64,000 nucleotides of DNA from Nesterenkonia aurantiaca (lineage in GTDB: Bacteria; Actinomycetota; Actinomycetes; Actinomycetales; Micrococcaceae). A program made the translations under genes and the position numbers. The notes beneath the pieces were generated by a model, which was not told where the DNA came from, made no database searches, and worked only from the letters and a program-made list of their open reading frames with translations. The stretch's first letter is position 1. The number at the start of each line of letters is the position of its first letter. Positions 36,056 through 48,965 of this stretch are shown here, piece after piece. The stretch covers positions 62,001 to 126,000 of the forward strand of contig NZ_SOAN01000006.1 of NCBI RefSeq assembly GCF_004364585.1, read 5' to 3'.

Positions 36056-36763
36056 TCACTCCCCGGCGCGCACCAGCCCGCATTCATAGGCGTAGACCAC
36101 CATCTGGGTCCGGTCCCGCAGTGCCAGCTTGGTCAGGATCCGTGACACGTGGGTCTTCACGGTCTGCTCGGCCAGGAACAGGTCGGCAGCGATCTCCGCG
36201 TTCGATCGTCCTCGGGCGACGGCGGTCATCACCTCCTGCTCCCGCTCGGTGAGTTCCCCCAGCAGCCGCGACGGCACCGGGGTCGCCGTCGGACGGGCCG
36301 CGTAGTCGGCGATCAGGGTGCGGGTGATCTTCGGCGAGAGCAGCGCGTCACCCTCGGCCACGACCCGGACCGCCTGGACCAGCTCCTCGGGGGTGGCGTC
36401 CTTGAGCAGGAAGCCGCTGGCCCCGGCGCGCAGCGCGTCGAAGACGTACTCGTCGGCGTCGAAGGTGGTCAGCATCAGGATCCGCGGCGGAGTCCCGTCC
36501 ATGCCGAGGATCTGCCGGGTGGCCTCCAGACCGTTGACCTTGGGCATCCGGATGTCCATCAGCACGACGTCGGGGGTGGTGCTGCGCACCACCTCCTCGA
36601 TGCCCTCTCCATCGGCGGCGGTGCCGGTCACCGTGATGTCCACCTGGGCGTCGAGCAGGGCGGCGAAGCCGGCGCGGATCATCGACTGGTCATCGACGAT
36701 GAGCACCCGGATCGAGGCAGGGGCGAGCGGGGCCGAGGGGTCGGCGGAGTCGGCGGCGGGCAT
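36056..36763 (-). CDS. NarL/LuxR-family response regulator
   Basis: A 235-residue regulator. The receiver domain at residues 18-135 has the acidic pair DD (24-25), phospho-acceptor Asp70 in DVVLMDIRMP, and Lys in GFLLKDATPEEL. The DNA-binding helix-turn-helix at about 165-228 reads LTEREQEVMTAVARGRSNAEIA. It is divergent from the histidine kinase, with 83 bases between. TAGCGT six bases before the ATG indicates a leaderless transcript. A CTACCC-CGGTAC sequence overlaps this -10 box and resembles the palindrome before the desaturase gene. Confidence 0.93.
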   Translation of the reverse strand: MPAADSADPSAPLAPASIRVLIVDDQSMIRAGFAALLDAQVDITVTGTAADGEGIEEVVRSTTPDVVLMDIRMPKVNGLEATRQILGMDGTPPRILMLTTFDADEYVFDALRAGASGFLLKDATPEELVQAVRVVAEGDALLSPKITRTLIADYAARPTATPVPSRLLGELTEREQEVMTAVARGRSNAEIAADLFLAEQTVKTHVSRILTKLALRDRTQMVVYAYECGLVRAGE

Positions 36764-36772
36764 GGTTCAACG

Positions 36773-36784
36773 CTACCCCGGTAC
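36773..36784. promoter_or_regulatory. Candidate response-regulator site at the regulator's own promoter
   Basis: CTACCCCGGTAC matches the centre of the 22-bp palindrome at 38782-38803 (CTACCCGGGTAG) at 10 of 12 positions and overlaps the -10 box of the response regulator gene. It may allow autoregulation; this is inference. Confidence 0.4.
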
Positions 36785-36846
36785 CGCGCTCGCCGATGCC
36801 TATGGTGTGATGAGGTCACCATGCCCTTCAGCCCAGGATCCTCCAC

Positions 36847-38772
36847 GTGCACAGCCCTGCCCCTGAATCCCTGACCCGACGGCTCGTGCGCGACAGCGCC
36901 TACGTGCTCCCAGGGCTGCCGATCGCGCTCTTCGGGGCCAGCCTGCTGCTGAGCCTGCTGGCGGTCTCCATCGCGACCGCGCCGCTGTGGGTGGGGGCCC
37001 TGGTGCTGCCGCTGACCCTGGTCACCGCCTCGGAGTTCGCGGAGCTCTCCCGGCGTCGGCTGCGAATCTGGGGCGCGCTGCTCGATCCGGTCGGCTACCG
37101 TCCCCGGGACCCAGGTCTGGCCGGTCGGCTCCGACCGGTGGCGGACCCGCGCCGCTGGCTGGACCTGATCTTTGAGATGATCCTCGCGCTGCCGGTGCGG
37201 CTGGTGACCTTCGTGGTGGCGGCCCTGTGGATCCTGATGGGCCCGGTCGGTCTCACCTACTTCTTCTGGTCTCGATTCATCCCCGGTGAACGTGGCCTGA
37301 TCCGCCTCCTGGAGCTCATCGCGCCGGCGCTGGTGCCGGCCAGCGGATTCTGGCAGTACGTGCTGGACTCCGGGGTGTTCTTCCTCCTCGGCGTGGTCTT
37401 CCTGGTCACCCTGCCTGCCGTGATGCGCGGTCTGGCCGCGCTGGACGCGCTGCTGGCCACGAGCCTGCTCGGCGCCGGCGGCCGGGGTCGGCTGATCCCG
37501 CTGGAGCACCCGCAGGCGCATCCGCTGGAGCGCACGCTCTCTCGGGTCGCCGGCGGACGACCGGGGGGCCAGGTCGAGGACTCCTCGGCCACCTTCAGCT
37601 CCGCCGCCTGGTCCTGGATCGGGATCTGCTTCGCCGCGGTGGTGCTCTTCGCGGTGGCCTGGCCGCTGACCACCACGGTCTATGGGATCCACCCGGCCCT
37701 GGGCCTGGTGCTGACCCTCGCGCACTGCCTGAGCCTTGTGCTCACGCTGAAGTTCCCCTGGGCCGGCATCGGCGCCTCGGTGCTGGTCTCAGCCGGGCTG
37801 ATGGGCGCCACCGCGGAGGCCGGGGTCGGGATCTGGCCCTGGCCGGTCACCGCCATGCTCATCCAGTGCGGGGTCATCCTGGTCGCGGCGCTGCGCGAGC
37901 CCTGGTACTGCGCGGCCAGCGGCTGGGCCGCCAGTGCGCTGCTCACCTTCGCGGCCATCGTCATGGCGGCTCCGCAGCTGCCCGACGGCGCGGTGAGCAC
38001 CGGCATCGTGTTCTCCTCGGTCGGGGTCGGCGTCGCAGTGCTCGGAAGCCTGACCCGGCAGTGGATCCGCGACGCCGACCGGCTCGAGGTCTCCGAACGC
38101 ACCAGCGCGCAGCAGAGCCGACGACGTCGGGAGCTGGAGGAGCGCAACCGGATCGCCCGCGAGCTCCACGACGTGGTCGCCCACTCGATGTCGGTGATCA
38201 GCGTGCAGGCCGCGACCGCCCGCTACCGGCTCAGCTCCATCACGCCCGAGGCGCAGCAGGAGTTCGAAGAGATCGCCCGATCCTCCCGCCAAGCACTGGG
38301 CGAGATGCGGATGCTGCTGGGCACGCTGCGCAGCGAGGAGGAGCCCCCCACCGGACCGACCCCGGGCCTCGCCGAGATCTACTCCCTGGTCGAAGCCACC
38401 CGCGCTTCGGGCACCCCGATCCGGGTCACCGGGCTTGACGTCGTCGAGGCGTCCTCCGCGGTCGGCCTCGCCGCCTACCGGATGGTCCAGGAGGGACTGA
38501 GCAACGCGCTGCGTCATGCGCCCTCCTCCACGATCGAGGTCAGCGCCGAGCTGCTCGGGGAACGGTCCGAGGCTTCGAGCTCAGCAGACACCGAGCACCT
38601 GCTGATCCAGGTGCGCAACACCGCTCCGCCGCACCCGGTCTCAGTGCCCGCCCCGGGCGCCGGGCTGGGACTGGAGGGCATCCGGGAGCGGGTCAGCGCG
38701 GTCGGGGGGACCGTGGAGACCGGAGAGACCCCGGACGGCGGGTACTTCATCCGGGCCTCCTTCCCGCTGTGA
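36847..38772 (+). CDS. Sensor histidine kinase, HisKA_3 type with large membrane sensor
   Basis: A 641-residue protein. Residues 1-215 form a first membrane region with about four segments, like the actinobacterial putative sensor domain. Residues about 255-410 form a second region of about five segments. The dimerisation and phosphotransfer helix carries His441 in IARELHDVVAHSMSVISVQ, and a HATPase_c domain follows (YRMVQEGLSNALRHA, GAGLGLEGIRERV). This is the NarX/DesK-type kinase class that pairs with NarL-family regulators. The GTG start at 36847 has GGAT-like sequence upstream. The desaturase gene follows after 86 bases. Confidence 0.9.
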   Translation: MHSPAPESLTRRLVRDSAYVLPGLPIALFGASLLLSLLAVSIATAPLWVGALVLPLTLVTASEFAELSRRRLRIWGALLDPVGYRPRDPGLAGRLRPVADPRRWLDLIFEMILALPVRLVTFVVAALWILMGPVGLTYFFWSRFIPGERGLIRLLELIAPALVPASGFWQYVLDSGVFFLLGVVFLVTLPAVMRGLAALDALLATSLLGAGGRGRLIPLEHPQAHPLERTLSRVAGGRPGGQVEDSSATFSSAAWSWIGICFAAVVLFAVAWPLTTTVYGIHPALGLVLTLAHCLSLVLTLKFPWAGIGASVLVSAGLMGATAEAGVGIWPWPVTAMLIQCGVILVAALREPWYCAASGWAASALLTFAAIVMAAPQLPDGAVSTGIVFSSVGVGVAVLGSLTRQWIRDADRLEVSERTSAQQSRRRRELEERNRIARELHDVVAHSMSVISVQAATARYRLSSITPEAQQEFEEIARSSRQALGEMRMLLGTLRSEEEPPTGPTPGLAEIYSLVEATRASGTPIRVTGLDVVEASSAVGLAAYRMVQEGLSNALRHAPSSTIEVSAELLGERSEASSSADTEHLLIQVRNTAPPHPVSVPAPGAGLGLEGIRERVSAVGGTVETGETPDGGYFIRASFPL

Positions 38773-38781
38773 ACCCCGCCC

Positions 38782-38803
38782 ACCCCCTACCCGGGTAGGG
38801 GGT
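38782..38803. promoter_or_regulatory. Perfect 22-bp palindrome upstream of the desaturase gene
   Basis: Two 11-base arms (ACCCCCTACCC and its exact reverse complement) meet without a spacer. It lies ten bases after the kinase stop and about 45 bases before the desaturase -10 box (TAACGT, 38847-38852). No T-run follows, so an operator fits better than a terminator. The likely ligand is the neighbouring response regulator. Confidence 0.6.
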
Positions 38804-38858
38804 CAGGTTGGCTCCGCCGGGTGACGCGGCGCAGATCTCAGCTCGATAACGTGGAACC

Positions 38859-39962
38859 ATGACAATCACTGAGACACGGTCGGAGGCCGCCCAGGGCCGC
38901 GCCGAGCGAGTGCGCCCAGCCGGTAACAAACAGGTCAACGAATTCTTCGAGCTCGCCCAGCGGGTCAAGGACGAGGGCCTGATGGACCGCGGCGCCTCCA
39001 GCTACGTGCTCCGGGTGATCGTGCTGACCCTGGCCTTCGCCGGCGCCTTCGTGGCGATGTTCACCCTCGGTGACAGCCTCTGGCAGCTCGGCCTCGCCGC
39101 GCTCTTCGGGATCCTGTTCACCCAGGTCGCCTTCCTCTCCCACGACGGCGCCCACCAGCAGGTGTTCCGCACCGGCAAGCGCAACGAGTGGTTCGGCCGG
39201 GTCACCGGCAACCTCATCGTGGGTCTGTCCTACGGCTGGTGGACCAAGAAGCACGGCAAGCACCACGCCAACCCCAACACCATCGGCAAGGACGGCGACA
39301 TCGCCCCCGGCGCCCTGGTCTTCGTCGCCGAGGACGCTGCGCAGCGCACCGGCTTCATGGGTTGGCTCGCCCGCCGGCAGGGCTGGATGTTCTTCCCGCT
39401 GCTGACCCTCTTCGCGATCGCACTGCACTACAACGCGCTCAAGACCATCTTCACCGCCAAGAAGCTCAAGCGCCGCAAGACCGAGCTGGCCATGCTGGCC
39501 GTGCGCCTGATCGGCTTCCCGGTGCTGATCTTCCTGGCCATGAGCCCCGGCCTGGCGCTGGGCTTCCTGGCCATCCAGCTGCTGGTCTTCGGCGTCTACA
39601 TGGGTGGCAGCTTCGCCCCGAACCACAAGGGCATGCCGATCATCCCCAAGGACTCCGACATGGACTTCCTGCGCCGCCAGGTGCTGACCTCACGCAACAT
39701 CAAGGGCGGCCGGGCCATGGACGTCGCCATGGGCGGACTGAACCTGCAGATCGAGCACCACCTCTTCCCGCGGATGCCCAGCCCCAACCTGCACAAGGTG
39801 AAGCCGATCGTCGAGGAGTTCTGCGCCGAGAAGGGCATCAGCTACACCGCCACCGGGCTGATCACGTCCTACGGCATGGTCGTGACCTACCTGAACCGTG
39901 TGGGTCTGGGCTACGCCGATCCGATGGACTGCCCGATCATGAACCAGTACCGCGCCCGCTGA
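38859..39962 (+). CDS. Membrane fatty acid desaturase
   Basis: A 367-residue protein with the three histidine boxes of acyl-lipid/acyl-CoA desaturases: HDGAH (from residue 95), HGKHH (from 132) and EHHLFP (His300-301). Hydrophobic segment pairs lie before the first box and between the second and third. It places double bonds in membrane acyl chains using O2 and a reduced ferredoxin or similar donor. TAACGT six bases before the ATG indicates a leaderless promoter. Its location behind a DesK-like kinase suggests control by membrane state. Confidence 0.92.
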   Translation: MTITETRSEAAQGRAERVRPAGNKQVNEFFELAQRVKDEGLMDRGASSYVLRVIVLTLAFAGAFVAMFTLGDSLWQLGLAALFGILFTQVAFLSHDGAHQQVFRTGKRNEWFGRVTGNLIVGLSYGWWTKKHGKHHANPNTIGKDGDIAPGALVFVAEDAAQRTGFMGWLARRQGWMFFPLLTLFAIALHYNALKTIFTAKKLKRRKTELAMLAVRLIGFPVLIFLAMSPGLALGFLAIQLLVFGVYMGGSFAPNHKGMPIIPKDSDMDFLRRQVLTSRNIKGGRAMDVAMGGLNLQIEHHLFPRMPSPNLHKVKPIVEEFCAEKGISYTATGLITSYGMVVTYLNRVGLGYADPMDCPIMNQYRAR

Positions 39963-40082: not shown

Positions 40083-41000
40083 TCAGCGCGCGCGGGAGGT
40101 GCGGGTCAGGTGTCGGGTCTCGCTGGAGAACAGCGGGATCAGGACCGCGCTGAGCAGGAACGCCGGGGCGGAGGACAATGCGGCCCCCGCCATGAACAGC
40201 CACGGGCTGGGTGAGGCTGTGGCCTCTGCCAGGCCATGGCGCGCCACCGGTCCCAGCAGCGCGGCGAGCCCGATCGCCGTGCCGATCACTCCGAGCGTCA
40301 GGCAAAGGCCCGCCTGTCGGCCTCCCGGGATTCCAGGCTCGGCCGGCAGCGGCGCGAGCTGCGGGTCGCTGGCCTCCACGTGGTGCACCACGGCGCCGCC
40401 GAGCAGCGTCCAGGCCGCCACCACCAGATAGGCCGCCAACATGTCGCTGGGCAGGTGCCAGCCCTCGATGTAGATATAGCCGCCCCACCCGGCCGCCCAG
40501 ACTCCGGCCAGGACGCCCCAGAAGGCGCGGTCTCGGGGCCGGCAGATCAGGAACACCGCCGCTGCGGCACCTGCGGCCATGGTCGTATGACCGCTGGGCA
40601 GGGAGTTCATCGGCCATTCCTGGCTCAGACTCACCAGCGCAGGACGCGAGGACCAGACCAGCTTGATCAGCTGCGTAGTGATGTTGGACCCCAGCGCCAC
40701 CGCGGCCCCGCAGAGCAGGACCAGCCACCGCTGGTGGGATCCGCGCTGATGACCCAGCGCCAGGCATGCCAGCGCCGGGGGCAGCAGGATCCACACGGTG
40801 GCCCAGGTCCTGTGCGTATTCAGCTCAGGCAGTGGGTTCCAGGTGCCTGCGGCGGTGCGCTGCATCATCTGGTCCAGCAGCTGGCCCGGCCCGGTGCGGA
40901 CCGCGCCGAGGTAGAGCACCCCGAAGAGCACCACACACAGCAGAAACCCGGCCACCCACCGCTCGAGGTGGAAGGCCGGGTTTCTCTGGTGTTGGGGCAT
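40083..41000 (-). CDS. PAP2-type membrane phosphatase (copy 1)
   Basis: A 305-residue polytopic protein with the PAP2 signatures KLVWSSRPALV (motif 1, divergent), LPSGHTTMAAG (motif 2) and EGWHLPSDMLAAYLV (motif 3 with catalytic His). Such enzymes remove phosphate from lipid phosphates or undecaprenyl diphosphate at the outer membrane face. It is paralogous to the gene at 42640-43608. The ATG at 41000 is preferred because CAGAAT lies six bases upstream; 41018 is the alternative start. Confidence 0.86.
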   Translation of the reverse strand: MPQHQRNPAFHLERWVAGFLLCVVLFGVLYLGAVRTGPGQLLDQMMQRTAAGTWNPLPELNTHRTWATVWILLPPALACLALGHQRGSHQRWLVLLCGAAVALGSNITTQLIKLVWSSRPALVSLSQEWPMNSLPSGHTTMAAGAAAAVFLICRPRDRAFWGVLAGVWAAGWGGYIYIEGWHLPSDMLAAYLVVAAWTLLGGAVVHHVEASDPQLAPLPAEPGIPGGRQAGLCLTLGVIGTAIGLAALLGPVARHGLAEATASPSPWLFMAGAALSSAPAFLLSAVLIPLFSSETRHLTRTSRAR

Positions 41001-41209
41001 GCGGCCATTCTGCCGCACGGCTTCAGCGACGGGGAGCTTGGACTCCGGTTGTGTTTCGACAGCAACGACCTAGCCGGCATCATTTCAACCCGCGCGGAAT
41101 TCAGTCGTGAATGATTACTTTCGTGCCCAATTAGCTATGTGAGCGAGAATCAGCGAAATCTGAGGTGAACACCTTGATCCCTATGAACGAAGCGTGCTAC
41201 GAATTAGAT

Positions 41210-41515
41210 ATGAATAAAAAGTCTATATTAAAGAGAACAGTTGCTTCTATCGGCGTCATGGGTGTTGCAGCAGCGGGAGGTCTCCTCGGCGCCGCGCCCG
41301 CATCGGCGAGCGTGGCCCTGCCGGCATCTTCCGTAGGTTGCCAGTCAATCTCGAATCCGCCGATGAACTGTGAAGTGCGCGAAATCGACGAGCAGCAGGC
41401 ACGGAAGCAGCTGCAGTGCTACTCCGCCACAGGGATAGGCACGGTGTTCGGCGGCCCCAAGGCTGGCATCGCGGCTGGTCTGACCTGCGCCTCGGGTCAC
41501 CTCTTCAGCTACTGA
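41210..41515 (+). CDS. Small secreted Cys/Gly-rich peptide, unknown function
   Basis: A 101-residue precursor. Residues 1-33 are a clear Sec signal peptide (MNKKSILKRT, a hydrophobic Ala/Gly core, APASA cleavage site). The mature part is about 68 residues with four cysteines and ends in a Gly/Ala-rich amphipathic stretch (TGIGTVFGGPKAGIAAGL) before CASGHLFSY. The first 15 codons are AT-rich with rare ATA, TTA and AGA, unlike the neighbours. No known family is recognised; the C-terminus recalls pore-forming bacteriocins with GxxxG patterns, but no immunity or export gene is adjacent. The frame stays open upstream to a TTG or GTG near 41165-41174, so the start is uncertain. Confidence 0.6.
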   Translation: MNKKSILKRTVASIGVMGVAAAGGLLGAAPASASVALPASSVGCQSISNPPMNCEVREIDEQQARKQLQCYSATGIGTVFGGPKAGIAAGLTCASGHLFSY

Positions 41516-41807
41516 AAGAGTGACAACTTTGGCCCGGCCGAATTAGGAATCAGCCTCCGTGACTACGTCTCCAGGTAGTTGTCAATCTGAATACGGCCCG
41601 CATCGATTCTCTACCGCGTGGGGTACCTGAATTTGTCTGCGATGTCGACGGCAGATGGCGTCAGATCGTGACAGTCTAGAGTCGCCATTGCGATTCCGGA
41701 ATCCGCGGCGATTGACGCTGCCGGTCACGACGCCCCAAAGATCCTCCCAGGCTGTGTGCGGATGGTGAGGCAGAATGGGGGAAACTCCGGTTTCACAGAA
41801 GGTGATC

Positions 41808-42563
41808 ATGATGGACCACGCTCCCGAATCCGCGCACTTCCGCCGCCTGGAGGACCACGTCTTCCTCGCCGAACGGGGCGGCCCCCCGCCGCTCAACGTC
41901 GGGCTGATCCTGGGGGAGGACGCCGCCGTCCTCATCGACCCGGGACCGGCCGGGGGCGACCATACGGCTCTGCTGGCCGCGGTGCGTGAGCTCAGCTCCG
42001 CGGAACTGATCGTGGTCAACACCCACGGCCACCCCGACCACGTCGGGGCCAATGACTTTCTGCGCCGTCAGGGCGTGCATCGGATCCTCGCCCATGCAGA
42101 CGCCGGCGTGGAGACCGCGACCGATCTGGTCGCCGCCGAACCGGTGACGCTGCCCCTGGGCGGCGGCGTCGAGGTGGTCCTGGAGCACCTCGGTCGCGGC
42201 CACACCCAGGGCGACCTGGTGGTCGGGGTCCGTGCCGAGGGCTCCACCGGGGTCATGTTCTGCGGTGACCTGGTCCGGGAGGGTGATGACCCGGAGTTCC
42301 ACGACTCCTACCCCAAGGAATGGGTCCGCGCGCTCGGTCGGCTGTGGTCCATGGCCGGAAGCTACAGCCGCTTCGTCCCCGGCCACGGCCACGAGGTCGA
42401 CGCCGACTTCATCGCCTCGATGCGCCGGCGGATGCAGCAGGGCTACAACGTCTCCTCCCAGGCCATCCGGGAGTCGGTCAATGACGCCACCAAGGCGATC
42501 CCGATCGTGCCCTATGGCCCCGGGGAGTCCCGCGAGCTGATCACCCGGCTGCGCGGCCGCTGA
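41808..42563 (+). CDS. MBL-fold metallo-hydrolase
   Basis: A 251-residue protein with the metallo-beta-lactamase fold motif THGHPDHVGAN (HxHxDH), a later GRGHTQGD His, GVMFCGDLV with the bridging Asp, and FVPGHGHEVD. It probably hydrolyses a thioester or similar small molecule; the class is too broad to say more. AAGGTGATC directly upstream is a strong ribosome site, fixing the start at 41808 or 41811, and CAGAAT at 41771-41776 is a likely -10 box. Confidence 0.85.
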   Translation: MMDHAPESAHFRRLEDHVFLAERGGPPPLNVGLILGEDAAVLIDPGPAGGDHTALLAAVRELSSAELIVVNTHGHPDHVGANDFLRRQGVHRILAHADAGVETATDLVAAEPVTLPLGGGVEVVLEHLGRGHTQGDLVVGVRAEGSTGVMFCGDLVREGDDPEFHDSYPKEWVRALGRLWSMAGSYSRFVPGHGHEVDADFIASMRRRMQQGYNVSSQAIRESVNDATKAIPIVPYGPGESRELITRLRGR

Positions 42564-42639: not shown

Positions 42640-43608
42640 TCAGACCCGGTAGAGCTCGCTGAACTCCGGCGGGATCGGGTAGCGCACCGTCTCACCCTTG
42701 GGGGAGGGGACCGGTGCGCCGCGCTGGCGCCGGCCGGTCTCGGCGCCGAAGAGGTTGATCCCTGCGGCGGCCATCAGGAAGCCCGGGCCGATGGAGAAGA
42801 ACAGCCCGGCGAACCAGTGCCAGAGGCTGGGCTCCTCTCCGGCCAGCGCGATCCCGCTCCAGCCGCCGGAGAAGAGGAAGCACAGGACCGCCACCACGGT
42901 CAGGGTCACCCCGAGGAACCAGGCGAGGCCGGCCAGCGGCGCGGTCTCAGGCTCGTAGTCCACCACCGCGGTGTTCCACTCGGGGCCGGTGCGCATGACC
43001 AGCCAGCCGCCGATCAGGGCCCAGACCGCCACCACCAGGTAGGCCGCGATCACGTCGGCCGGGCGGTGCCAGGTCTCGGTGAAGGTATAGGCCCCGACCA
43101 GTCCGGCGTAGAAGGCGGCCAGCACGGCGACGAAGGGACGCTGCCGCGGGGAGCTGACCAGGAAGACCGCCACGGCCATCGAGGCCGCCAGGGTGGTGTG
43201 TCCGGAGGGCAGCGAGTTCCCGGTCCAGTAGGGGACGCCGTTGTCGAGGTCGGGGCGCTCGAGCCAGAGCGTCTTGAGCACCTGGGTGGAGAGGTTCGCT
43301 CCCACCACGGTGCCTGCCGCGATCAGCGCGGCCAGGAAGCGCTGCCGGGCCAGCACGATCACCAGGAAGATCACCGCGGGCAGCGCGATGATCACCGGAC
43401 TCAGCCACCAGAGGTCGAAGCCCCGTTCGGAGAGCGAGGTCACCCGCTCCGCCGCGGCGTCGAGCATCGCGTACTCCACCCACTGCCCGGAGTTGGAGCG
43501 GACGAAGTATTCATAGACCGCGATGAAGACCGCGCAGCAGAGCAGGATTCCGATGATCCACAGGCCTGTGCGCCGGGCCGGGGGACGAAGTGCGCGGGCA
43601 GCTGACAT
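42640..43608 (-). CDS. PAP2-type membrane phosphatase (copy 2)
   Basis: A 322-residue polytopic protein with KTLWLERPDLD (motif 1), NSLPSGHTTLAAS (motif 2) and ETWHRPADVIAAYLV (motif 3). It is clearly paralogous to the copy at 40083-41000: the middle region aligns residue by residue (SLPSGHTT, WHxPxDxxAAYLVVA). Both run on the minus strand and flank the peptide and MBL genes. GATACT seven bases before the ATG at 43608 sets the start; upstream in-frame ATGs exist. Confidence 0.88.
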   Translation of the reverse strand: MSAARALRPPARRTGLWIIGILLCCAVFIAVYEYFVRSNSGQWVEYAMLDAAAERVTSLSERGFDLWWLSPVIIALPAVIFLVIVLARQRFLAALIAAGTVVGANLSTQVLKTLWLERPDLDNGVPYWTGNSLPSGHTTLAASMAVAVFLVSSPRQRPFVAVLAAFYAGLVGAYTFTETWHRPADVIAAYLVVAVWALIGGWLVMRTGPEWNTAVVDYEPETAPLAGLAWFLGVTLTVVAVLCFLFSGGWSGIALAGEEPSLWHWFAGLFFSIGPGFLMAAAGINLFGAETGRRQRGAPVPSPKGETVRYPIPPEFSELYRV

Positions 43609-43651
43609 GTGCATCAGTATCGCAGGTTCACCCCTGCCTAGACTGAACGTC

Positions 43652-44737
43652 ATGGACGATCACCCCGCGGGCCGCGCAGGCCGCAACCTCAGCTGGCAGC
43701 TCCCCGAGGTGGAGGAGATCCTGGTTCAGGCGCACGTGGTCTCGCTGCCGCTGCGGACCCGCTTCCGCGGACAGACCCGGCGGGAGGCGATGCTGTTCCG
43801 CGGGCCTCTCGGCTGGGGAGAGTTCTCGCCGTTCCCGGAGTACCAGGCGGGCGAGTCCGCACAGTGGCTGCGCGCCGGGATCGAGGCCGGCTGGCAGGGT
43901 TGGGGCGAGCCGCTGCGCCGGCACATCCCGATCAACGCCACCATGCCGGCGGTGCCCCCCGAGCAGGTGGAATCCGTGCTGACCCGTTTCGGCGCCGTGG
44001 ACTCCATCCCCGCGGTCAAGATCAAGGTGGCCGAGCCCGGGCAGACCCTTGAGGACGACGTCGCCCGGTTCCGCGAAGTCCGCAGGCTGGTTCCTCATGC
44101 CGGGCTGCGCGCCGACGCCAACGGCGGCTGGAGCCTCGCCGAAGCGGTGCCTGCGCTGGAGCGCCTGGCCGAGGTCGCCGGCGGGAACTTCGAGTACGCC
44201 GAACAGCCGGTCGCCGGGGTCGAGCCGCTGGCGCAGCTCCGGGAGGCGCTCGCCGACGCCGGCGTCAGCTCCTCGGGGTCGCCGCTGCGGATCGCCGCAG
44301 ATGAGGCGGTGCGTAAGGCCGAGGATCCGCTCCGGGTGGCCAGGCTCGGCGCAGCAGACCTGATCGTGGTCAAGGTCCCCCCGCTCGGCGGGGTGGAGCG
44401 TGCGCTGCAGATCGTGGAGCAGGCAGGCCTCGATGCGGTGGTCTCCTCGGCGCTGGACACCTCGGTGGGCCTGGCCGCCGGGCTCGCGCTGGCCGCACGG
44501 CTGCCGCACCTGCCCTACGCCTGCGGACTCGGCACCGCCGCATTATTCGAACACGACGTGCTGGAGGATCCGTTGATCCCGTCCGCCGGGCTGTTGGCGG
44601 TCCCCGGTGCGGTGGAGCCCTCGCCGGAGATGCTGCGGCGGCACCGGGTCAGTCCCGAGCGTGAGCAGTGGTGGATCGCCCGACTGCGCGCCGCCCACCA
44701 GGTGCTCGCCGCAGAGCTTCTAGGATTGAGGGCATGA
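43652..44737 (+). CDS. menC: o-Succinylbenzoate synthase
   Basis: A 361-residue enolase-superfamily enzyme. It shows the catalytic Lys segment VKIKVAEPG, metal-binding Asp in RADANGGWS, Glu in EYAEQPV, Asp in IAADEAVR, and the second Lys in IVVKVPPLGG. It dehydrates SHCHC to o-succinylbenzoate. TAGACT at 43639-43644 lies seven bases before the ATG, so the transcript should be leaderless. Its stop overlaps the menD start by four bases. Confidence 0.94.
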   Translation: MDDHPAGRAGRNLSWQLPEVEEILVQAHVVSLPLRTRFRGQTRREAMLFRGPLGWGEFSPFPEYQAGESAQWLRAGIEAGWQGWGEPLRRHIPINATMPAVPPEQVESVLTRFGAVDSIPAVKIKVAEPGQTLEDDVARFREVRRLVPHAGLRADANGGWSLAEAVPALERLAEVAGGNFEYAEQPVAGVEPLAQLREALADAGVSSSGSPLRIAADEAVRKAEDPLRVARLGAADLIVVKVPPLGGVERALQIVEQAGLDAVVSSALDTSVGLAAGLALAARLPHLPYACGLGTAALFEHDVLEDPLIPSAGLLAVPGAVEPSPEMLRRHRVSPEREQWWIARLRAAHQVLAAELLGLRA

Positions 44738-48176: not shown

Positions 48177-48236
48177 GGCTGGACAAGTCTAGGACATGGC
48201 GGCGGGGGTGATCCGCGCATGTGGGAGAATGCCAAG

Positions 48237-48965
48237 GTGAATCGCCCCAGCACCGGAAGCCGCGCCAGCCTCGCGAAGAAGCCCGAGGACGTCGCCTCGA
48301 TGTTCGACGAGGTCGCCGACCGTTATGACCTCACCAACGACGTGCTCTCGCTGGGCCAGACCAGGCGCTGGCGCAAGCAGCTCGTCACCGCGCTCGACGT
48401 CGCCCCAGGTGAGCGGGTCCTGGACCTCGCCGCGGGCACCGGAAGCTCCACCGAGCCCTTCCACGACGCCGGTGCTGAGGCAGTGGCCTGCGACTTCTCC
48501 TCAGGCATGCTTCAGGTGGGCAAGCGGCGCCGCCCGGACATGACGTTCATCGCCGGGGACGCGATGAACCTGCCCTTCGCCGACGACACCTTCGAGGCCG
48601 TCACGATCTCCTTCGGACTGCGTAACATCGTGGACCCGCTGGCCGGGCTGCGCGAGATGCTCCGGGTCACCGCGCCCGGTGGACGGCTCGCCGTGATGGA
48701 GTTCTCCGACCCGGTGAACAAGGTCTTCAACACCGTCTACAACGAGTACCTGATGCGCGCGCTGCCGCCGGCCGCCCGGGCGGTGTCTTCTAACCCCGAG
48801 GCCTACGTGTATCTGGCCGAGTCCATCCGCGCCTGGCCCGACCAGGACCACCTGGCCGCGGAGATCTCCGCGGCCGGATACGACTCGGTGCGGTACCGGA
48901 ACCTCAGCGGTGGAATCGTCGCGATTCATCACGCCACCAAGCCCAGCGCCCTCCCCGCCTCCTGA
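48237..48965 (+). CDS. menG: Demethylmenaquinone methyltransferase
   Basis: A 242-residue UbiE-family protein with [23 protein letters not shown], motif [13 protein letters not shown], the YP-type region [10 protein letters not shown], and GGIVAIHHA near the end. It performs the last step to menaquinone using SAM. The GTG start at 48237 is chosen because GAGAAT lies six bases upstream; an ATG at 48219 in the same frame would put the start upstream of that box. Confidence 0.93.

Follow-up and report, generated by a model that had tools for sequence, protein, structure and literature searches.

A DesK/DesR-like two-component system in Nesterenkonia aurantiaca and a conserved, putative bipartite operator at its neighboring desaturase gene

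Genes and regulatory sequences at the locus

The stretch of DNA analyzed here (the window) comprises 64,000 nucleotides of Nesterenkonia aurantiaca (source genome G000, 2.9 Mb) and contains a two-component system, a fatty acid desaturase gene and, between them, a DNA element that may connect the two. An earlier note on this DNA described a NarL-type regulator and a HisKA_3 kinase that diverge, with a desaturase gene 86 bases past the kinase, and our reading of the open reading frames (ORFs) and Pfam domains confirms this layout. The regulator (36056..36763, minus strand) is of the NarL/LuxR type and DesR-like, with a receiver domain (Response_reg, PF00072) and a GerE domain (PF00196), as in the NarL-type DesR. 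The sensor histidine kinase (36847..38772, plus strand; 641 amino acids, GTG start) carries PF13796 Sensor, HisKA_3 (PF07730) and HATPase_c (PF02518) domains. The desaturase (38859..39962, plus strand; 367 amino acids; PF00487, E = 5.6e-42) is the sole match at E ≤ 1e-40 in its own genome. Among the named loci of the pattern scan described below, which may omit records still nearer, the nearest belongs to Nesterenkonia sp. E16_10, with kinase and desaturase each 97% identical. The regulator that adjoins the kinase in Nesterenkonia loci is 69–98% identical to that of the window.

Upstream of the desaturase lies a perfect 22-bp palindrome, ACCCCCTACCCGGGTAGGGGGT (38782..38803; −77 to −56 from the presumed start), which we can confirm at the position first reported. 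It fits a 7-2-7 inverted pair, CCCTACC-NN-GGTAGGG, and two heptamers two bases apart are an arrangement known for NarL-type dimers. The palindrome had been placed just upstream of the −10 box, which does not hold: 43 bases separate its end from the −10, and a further conserved box stands in this interval. The alignment of homologous upstream regions reveals this second part of the putative operator, TTGGCTCCGCCGGGTGACG (38808..38826, plus strand; −51 to −33), and the −10 box TAACGT (38847..38852, plus strand) 6 nt ahead of the desaturase ATG, where TANNNT is conserved at a fixed distance. In full, the conserved element reads ACCCCCTAC-Y-N3-GTAGGGGGT, four bases, WTGGCTCC, three bases, G(G/T)G(T/G)GA(C/T)G, and then the −10 TANNNT; in short, it consists of the palindrome TAC-N4-GTA, the box WTGGCTCC-N3-G(G/T)G(T/G)GAYG and a −10 at 59–60 nt. 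The search pattern itself accounts for part of the invariant letters, but it imposes neither the flanking ACCCCC nor the GGGTGACG part nor the −10. On this alignment, the putative operator is bipartite and ∼45 bp long, and is not the palindrome alone.

The spacing of the element is nearly constant. Among the 41 sites of the pattern scan, TANNNT begins 59 or 60 nt from the T of TAC in 40, and the ATG lies 71–73 nt from the same T in 33; because these distances are fixed, a leaderless mRNA is the usual reading, and the desaturase mRNA is probably leaderless. A longer leader is seen in several Nesterenkonia (e.g., L088 and L091). The 3′ end of the second part, GTGACG (38821–38826), resembles a −35 box (TTGACA) with a 20-nt spacer, and the arrangement as a whole would be the picture of an activated promoter. 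Some NarL-type regulators repress, and since the second box ends at −33, adjoining the promoter core, the regulator might instead repress the desaturase from this site, for example by blocking polymerase. However, the element stops short of the −10, the sequence that resembles a −35 is poor and its spacer long at 20 nt, and the fixed distance to the −10 suits activation. We therefore regard repression as improbable.

By itself the palindrome is weak evidence, and it was rejected as sole proof: 200 first-order Markov simulations give a chance of 0.05 per 64 kb for a perfect palindrome of at least 22 bp, and the window holds a second one, GGCCGCGGAGATCTCCGCGGCC (48854–48875), within the ORF at 48219–48965. 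It is the comparison across genomes that makes the evidence for the putative operator strong. These same figures would suit a chance hairpin or an intrinsic terminator of the kinase gene, as would the GC-rich composition of the palindrome and its start 9 bases past the kinase stop codon. Yet no T-run follows it, and a terminator scan finds no terminator there; the element accompanies the desaturase where that gene is located away from the kinase, and the second box is equally conserved despite being non-palindromic. A terminator or chance hairpin is already contradicted by these comparative data and is extremely improbable.

A 10-of-12 match to the palindrome core had also been noticed at 36773–36784, over the regulator's own promoter. 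The match exists, but is weak alone, because 3 matches with at most 2 mismatches are found where 1.98 are expected. Its surroundings are conserved in six aligned Nesterenkonia sequences, close relatives that we selected. The operator core within it, TACCCCGGTA (36774..36783, between regulator and kinase), is invariant in five of the six, with one inner base changed in L048, and its distance to a candidate kinase −10, CAGGAT (36834–36839), is exactly 60 nt, the same as at the desaturase. This CAGGAT stands 7 nt ahead of the kinase GTG. On the other strand, a candidate −10 of a leaderless regulator mRNA, TAGCGT (36770..36775, minus strand), touches the palindromic core and belongs to a block invariant in all six sequences. 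The weaker site would probably give autoregulation. As a full element it was rejected for its weak score, and it is kept only as a probable site.

Conservation of the site and its co-occurrence with the system

The earlier note had offered as one refutation that palindrome and gene order might both fail to be conserved in relatives, and its reading withstands this check. It had also proposed a search for the core in related genomes. The 12-bp core alone matches 16 of 197 family genomes, and just three of the 16 loci fetched, one per genome, hold kinase and desaturase (L001, L010 and L011). The core alone was therefore rejected as a search key, and the key was extended. In a family search that yielded 30 kinase loci (L018–L047, window included), 11 also hold a desaturase and the site is present in all 11; the other 19 have no desaturase within the fetched DNA. 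Within the genus, the kinase is found at E ≤ 1e-90 in 26 of 30 genomes, and 25 of these 26 have the site at the desaturase; the remaining one (G215) has a contig that breaks off within the kinase (L224). Four Nesterenkonia genomes (G153, G197, G202 and G212) carry the desaturase in inverted orientation, about one gene away, and the site has moved along with it.

A DNA pattern built from the Micrococcaceae loci was then scanned against ∼85,000 species genomes and returned 41 stretches, all actinobacterial by title. Kinase or regulator is present in 38, the desaturase in 36 and both in 34. As many as 40 adjoin a homologue of the window desaturase and/or of the two-component pair, and the last (L073) precedes a PF13796 gene. 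Two stretches end ahead of the expected desaturase (L096 and L105), two from Agromyces have the desaturase only (L075 and L087), and two have the system without a desaturase (L106 and L108). The 20 stretches from outside the Micrococcaceae (11 Promicromonospora, three Myceligenerans, two Agromyces, and one each from Nocardioides, Kitasatospora, Nucisporomicrobium and Actinocatenispora) divide into 17 with kinase or regulator, two with the desaturase only and one with the PF13796 gene only. Two further families of the order (G401/L111 and G476/L117) have site, kinase and desaturase together.

Looser searches returned more mixed sets of loci. The right half of the pattern, with at most one mismatch, matches 21 of 396 order genomes; eight of the loci have kinase, regulator or desaturase (L111, L117, L122–L125, L127 and L128) and 13 do not. 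The box without the palindrome matches 10 of 396 phylum genomes, where the window's own site, L213 and L214 have both palindrome and system, L216/L219 has the system and the geometry with a poor palindrome, and in the fetched DNA of the other six genomes neither a palindrome nor a match to kinase or regulator was found. A profile of the site matches 103 of 394 class genomes at E ≤ 0.1, most of these matches being short and weak, and half of the 30 loci fetched (15) hold a homologue of the kinase, regulator or desaturase.

A further comparison concerns desaturase loci in genomes with and without the system. The desaturase is found at E ≤ 1e-40 in 62 of 100 family genomes searched, and the 30 best-match loci were used. 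A genome was counted as having the system when its best kinase match reached at least 174 bits and as lacking it at 112 bits or fewer, or when the match was unlisted and weaker; this cut was placed at a gap in the list, after inspection. The site is present in 18 of the 19 Micrococcaceae loci with the system (17 score above 20, and L189, shifted by one base, was recognized by eye), and in none of the 11 without it, where the best score is −15.8. Fisher's test on 17/19 versus 0/11 gives p = 1.4e-6, uncorrected for the relatedness of the genomes. When the seven loci of the genera that built the matrix are left out, the counts are 10/12 by score (11 by eye) versus 0/11. In 11 of the 18 site-bearing loci the system is not nearby, being 40–86 kb off in five and on another contig in six.

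Co-occurrence of this kind would also be seen if another regulator that accompanies the system binds the site, and the two Agromyces loci, with site and desaturase and no system within 8 kb, are in line with that idea. Against it, the gene that recurs beside the site is of the window regulator type, and sites also precede the kinase or its neighbor in several clades, so that a different regulator seems very improbable. By comparison of genomes, the putative operator, its fixed geometry and its linkage to both system and desaturase hold across genera.

Kinase architecture and the genes behind the site in relatives

The kinase had been called unusual in having two membrane regions with about nine segments. 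The two regions stand, with roughly nine or ten segments, and the extra one corresponds to an established Pfam domain, PF13796, here joined to a DesK-like kinase. PF13796 occupies residues 19–208 at the N-terminus (36901..37470, plus strand; Pfam and predicted model) and constitutes membrane region 1, with helices at about 9–74, 101–142 and 167–208. Region 2 (residues 252–405; 37600..38061, plus strand) is DesK-like by hydropathy, comparison and predicted model, with ∼6 helices (252–279, 283–302, 304–322, 334–350, 353–373 and 382 onward) and conserved WPWPVT and PWY motifs, and HisKA_3 follows at residues 432–498 (Pfam). The helix assignments come from hydropathy and a low-confidence model (mean predicted local distance difference test score 68.8, predicted template modeling score 0.39) that served for helix limits only.

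The PF13796 region is absent from the kinases examined in Promicromonospora (L068, L071, L096 and L104), Myceligenerans (L072 and L090) and one Nesterenkonia (G208). In genus g4, the PF13796 protein is a separate gene adjoining the kinase (L162, 46% identical), and in Actinocatenispora a lone PF13796 gene has the operator upstream. PF13796 may thus be an accessory or feedback subunit that was later fused to the kinase. At the g4 loci L162 and L167, the separate PF13796 gene and a DesK-like kinase adjoin a 68% identical regulator. The operator site was not found at these two loci, and no desaturase was found at E ≤ 1e-40 in the four g4 genomes searched (G003, G034, G060 and G082), G102 and G119 lying outside that search. 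The stand-alone gene of Actinocatenispora comari (L073:2808–3440) spans two frames and is either broken or mis-sequenced.

At E ≤ 1e-3 the site profile retains nine of the 394 class genomes. In the window's own genome its sole location is the desaturase promoter; the second match listed is that same palindrome on the opposite strand. G235 has three sites, ahead of the kinase, a neighboring PF01757 acyltransferase and an unlinked desaturase; G358 has sites at kinase and acyltransferase, G345 at the acyltransferase, G395 at the desaturase and G582 directly ahead of the inferred kinase start. In G648 and G769 the sites precede small membrane proteins that are 48% alike and have no Pfam match, one of them weakly like the L073 PF13796 protein. 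An Arthrobacter-like genome (G026) has the desaturase site and another ahead of an acyltransferase near the system; that acyltransferase was not found in the window's genome, in a search without a positive control. Two small membrane proteins of family f38 behind the operator (L165:4781–5128 and L166:5702–6349) share a WGGPSR-GAW motif; they have no Pfam match and a weak likeness to PF13796. A weak match to the site occurs in G004 at the end of the kinase gene, ahead of a VTT-domain gene (L163:5926–5973).

Six loci of genus g144, chosen because the regulator adjoins a weak match, have the palindrome followed after 11 nt by the box, with TANNNT at the expected 40 nt in only two of the six. The next gene is a PF06259 hydrolase in four of them (L172, L174, L175 and L221), followed by an acyltransferase in L174 and L175; an ABC transporter comes next in L220 (an ATPase-like ORF and a MacB/FtsX permease), and an acyltransferase lies ∼1 kb on in L173. 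In L219, from another class, the box stands 39 nt ahead of a −10, followed by an ABC ATPase gene without a leader; a kinase and a 59% identical regulator belong to the same cluster. Because sites precede differing genes across clades, the operator–regulator pair looks old, with varying outputs.

Elsewhere in the window, two ORFs downstream of the desaturase (40083–41018 and 42640–43653) form a close pair of membrane phosphatase genes that we take to be PAP2-like from their SGHTT motifs; between them are a small secreted-protein-like ORF (41165–41515) and a metallo-hydrolase-like ORF (41775–42563). The ORF that contains the second palindrome is methyltransferase-like, presumably related to MenG/UbiE, and directly precedes a polyprenyl-synthase-like ORF.

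Likeness to known systems and a proposed switch

The closest parallel in layout is DesK/DesR of Bacillus subtilis, which likewise combines a polytopic HisKA_3 kinase, a NarL-type regulator and an adjoining desaturase target. Phosphorylated DesR leaves a footprint from about −77 to −28. As with DesK, the membrane sensor of the window kinase consists of several helices and lacks a large outside domain, and DesK structures are the only Protein Data Bank (PDB) matches at E ≤ 0.001 in a single-sequence search. The kinase profile favors DesK (41.1 bits) over VraS (34.4 bits), and Foldseek with the kinase model finds kinase cores, with other kinases first and DesK third. The Pdes promoter, in the portion of PMC7726353 available, has repeat elements upstream, parallel to those at the window promoter. 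Unlike DesK/DesR, the window system adds the N-terminal PF13796 domain as a second membrane domain, its regulator diverges from kinase and desaturase, and its desaturase falls well short of the NCBIfam Delta(5) desaturase DesA model, scoring 39.3 bits where the cut-off is 500. A second pair of DesKR homologues, YvfT/YvfU of B. subtilis and Gram-positive relatives, has a Pdes-like promoter before the ABC transporter YvfRS (same partial source); this output parallels the ABC genes of L219 and L220, whereas the phylum differs and the window output is a desaturase.

HisKA_3 kinases and NarL-type regulators are also paired in LiaSR and VraSR, and the window system could be an envelope-stress switch of that type, in which damage to the cell wall or membrane-active compounds would trigger the kinase and the desaturase would count among several membrane-protecting outputs, with the same DNA mechanism and another signal. 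In the PDB the regulator matches VraR best, and in relatives the same box precedes ABC transporters (L219 and L220) and acyltransferases. Kinases with the same PF13796–HisKA_3 domain pair form a clade in natural-product gene clusters according to the part of PMC10663231 available, a text in which the words DesK and desaturase do not appear; those kinases are tied to such clusters. PF13796 may fill a part similar to LiaF/VraT. On the other side, the Micrococcaceae and Promicromonosporaceae examined have a desaturase as output, and the kinase profile is closer to DesK. No LiaF-like or cell-wall gene was recognized among the listed ORFs beside the system, the Pfam scan covering three genes only, and no cell-wall stress target was found in the window's own genome, where the desaturase is the only profile place under strict filters that can lose weak sites. 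We consider an envelope-stress switch doubtful, though a serious contender.

We favor a DesK/DesR-like switch for membrane lipid desaturation with its own putative operator and consider it likely, because the site is conserved and linked to desaturase and system. The kinase would sense the state of the membrane through its DesK-like helix bundle, modulated by the fused PF13796 domain, and phosphorylate the divergent NarL-type regulator. Conservation and geometry suggest that the palindrome (about −66) would be bound by a phosphorylated dimer and the box (−51 to −33) by a second one. The bound regulator would recruit RNA polymerase to a promoter with a −10 and a poor, badly spaced −35, and so turn on a leaderless desaturase mRNA. 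We infer the binding, activation as its sign, and membrane order or cold as its signal.

Several observations weigh against this switch. In a search with phmmer against the PDB, the regulator is closer to VraR (163.6 bits), NarL (130.6) and DevR (122.1) than to DesR (109.8), and for this reason the system is not filed as a DesK/DesR orthologue. One genome, G004, has system and desaturase with no detectable site. The recognition helix was rejected as a marker of operator specificity, since AEQTVKTHV-type helices occur in relatives without a site at their own locus, and the helix alone thus fails to explain specificity. The site between regulator and kinase scores only −28.5 on the whole-element profile, so it is not significant as a full element. 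A promoter scan finds no standard promoter at the desaturase, a negative that weighs little because shuffles expect none either. Some relatives of the system act instead on ABC transporters, hydrolases or acyltransferases, so that the signal may be something other than fluidity. In another actinobacterium, Rhodococcus RCBS9, levels of a DesK-annotated kinase rise at 10 °C and those of fatty acid desaturase genes fall, according to the accessible part of PMC11617531. The earlier note's proposal of an actinobacterial DesK/DesR counterpart with a new operator is thus supported in part: the operator is retained in relatives, accompanies the desaturase and is found in the same genomes as the system across genera, also where a long distance separates the two, with the amendments that the operator is bipartite and that DesR is not the regulator's nearest relative.

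The comparison also invites a wider hypothesis, for and against which we find the balance about even. One ancient actinobacterial operator–regulator pair (TAC-N4-GTA, one helical turn, WTGGCTCC-N3-G(G/T)GTGAYG and a fixed −10) would run membrane remodeling class-wide with swapped outputs: a desaturase in Micrococcales, hydrolase–acyltransferase operons or ABC exporters in Streptomyces-like genera, and PF13796 membrane proteins standing alone elsewhere. The sensor would then have PF13796 as its feedback subunit, made as a regulated protein of its own in some lineages and joined to the kinase in Nesterenkonia and Yaniella.

Among the titles and abstract beginnings searched, in which subscription papers are largely uncovered, none concerns the operator of an actinobacterial DesKR-like system. 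A term search of the accessible text of a review of Streptomyces coelicolor two-component systems (PMC9739842) found no desaturase, acyltransferase, fatty acid, DesK, membrane fluidity or PF13796. In the portions available, a DesK/R-like response in mycobacteria is speculation only (PMC9490103), and the Bacillus model is carried to Arthrobacter by analogy (PMC4326396). In the papers considered, the control of membrane desaturation in actinobacteria is little known, and a defined putative operator with fixed geometry makes the question directly testable and predicts regulon members in other genomes. The acyltransferase and the hydrolase family become candidate membrane-remodeling enzymes, and PF13796, a "putative sensor" domain, thereby gains a testable partner.

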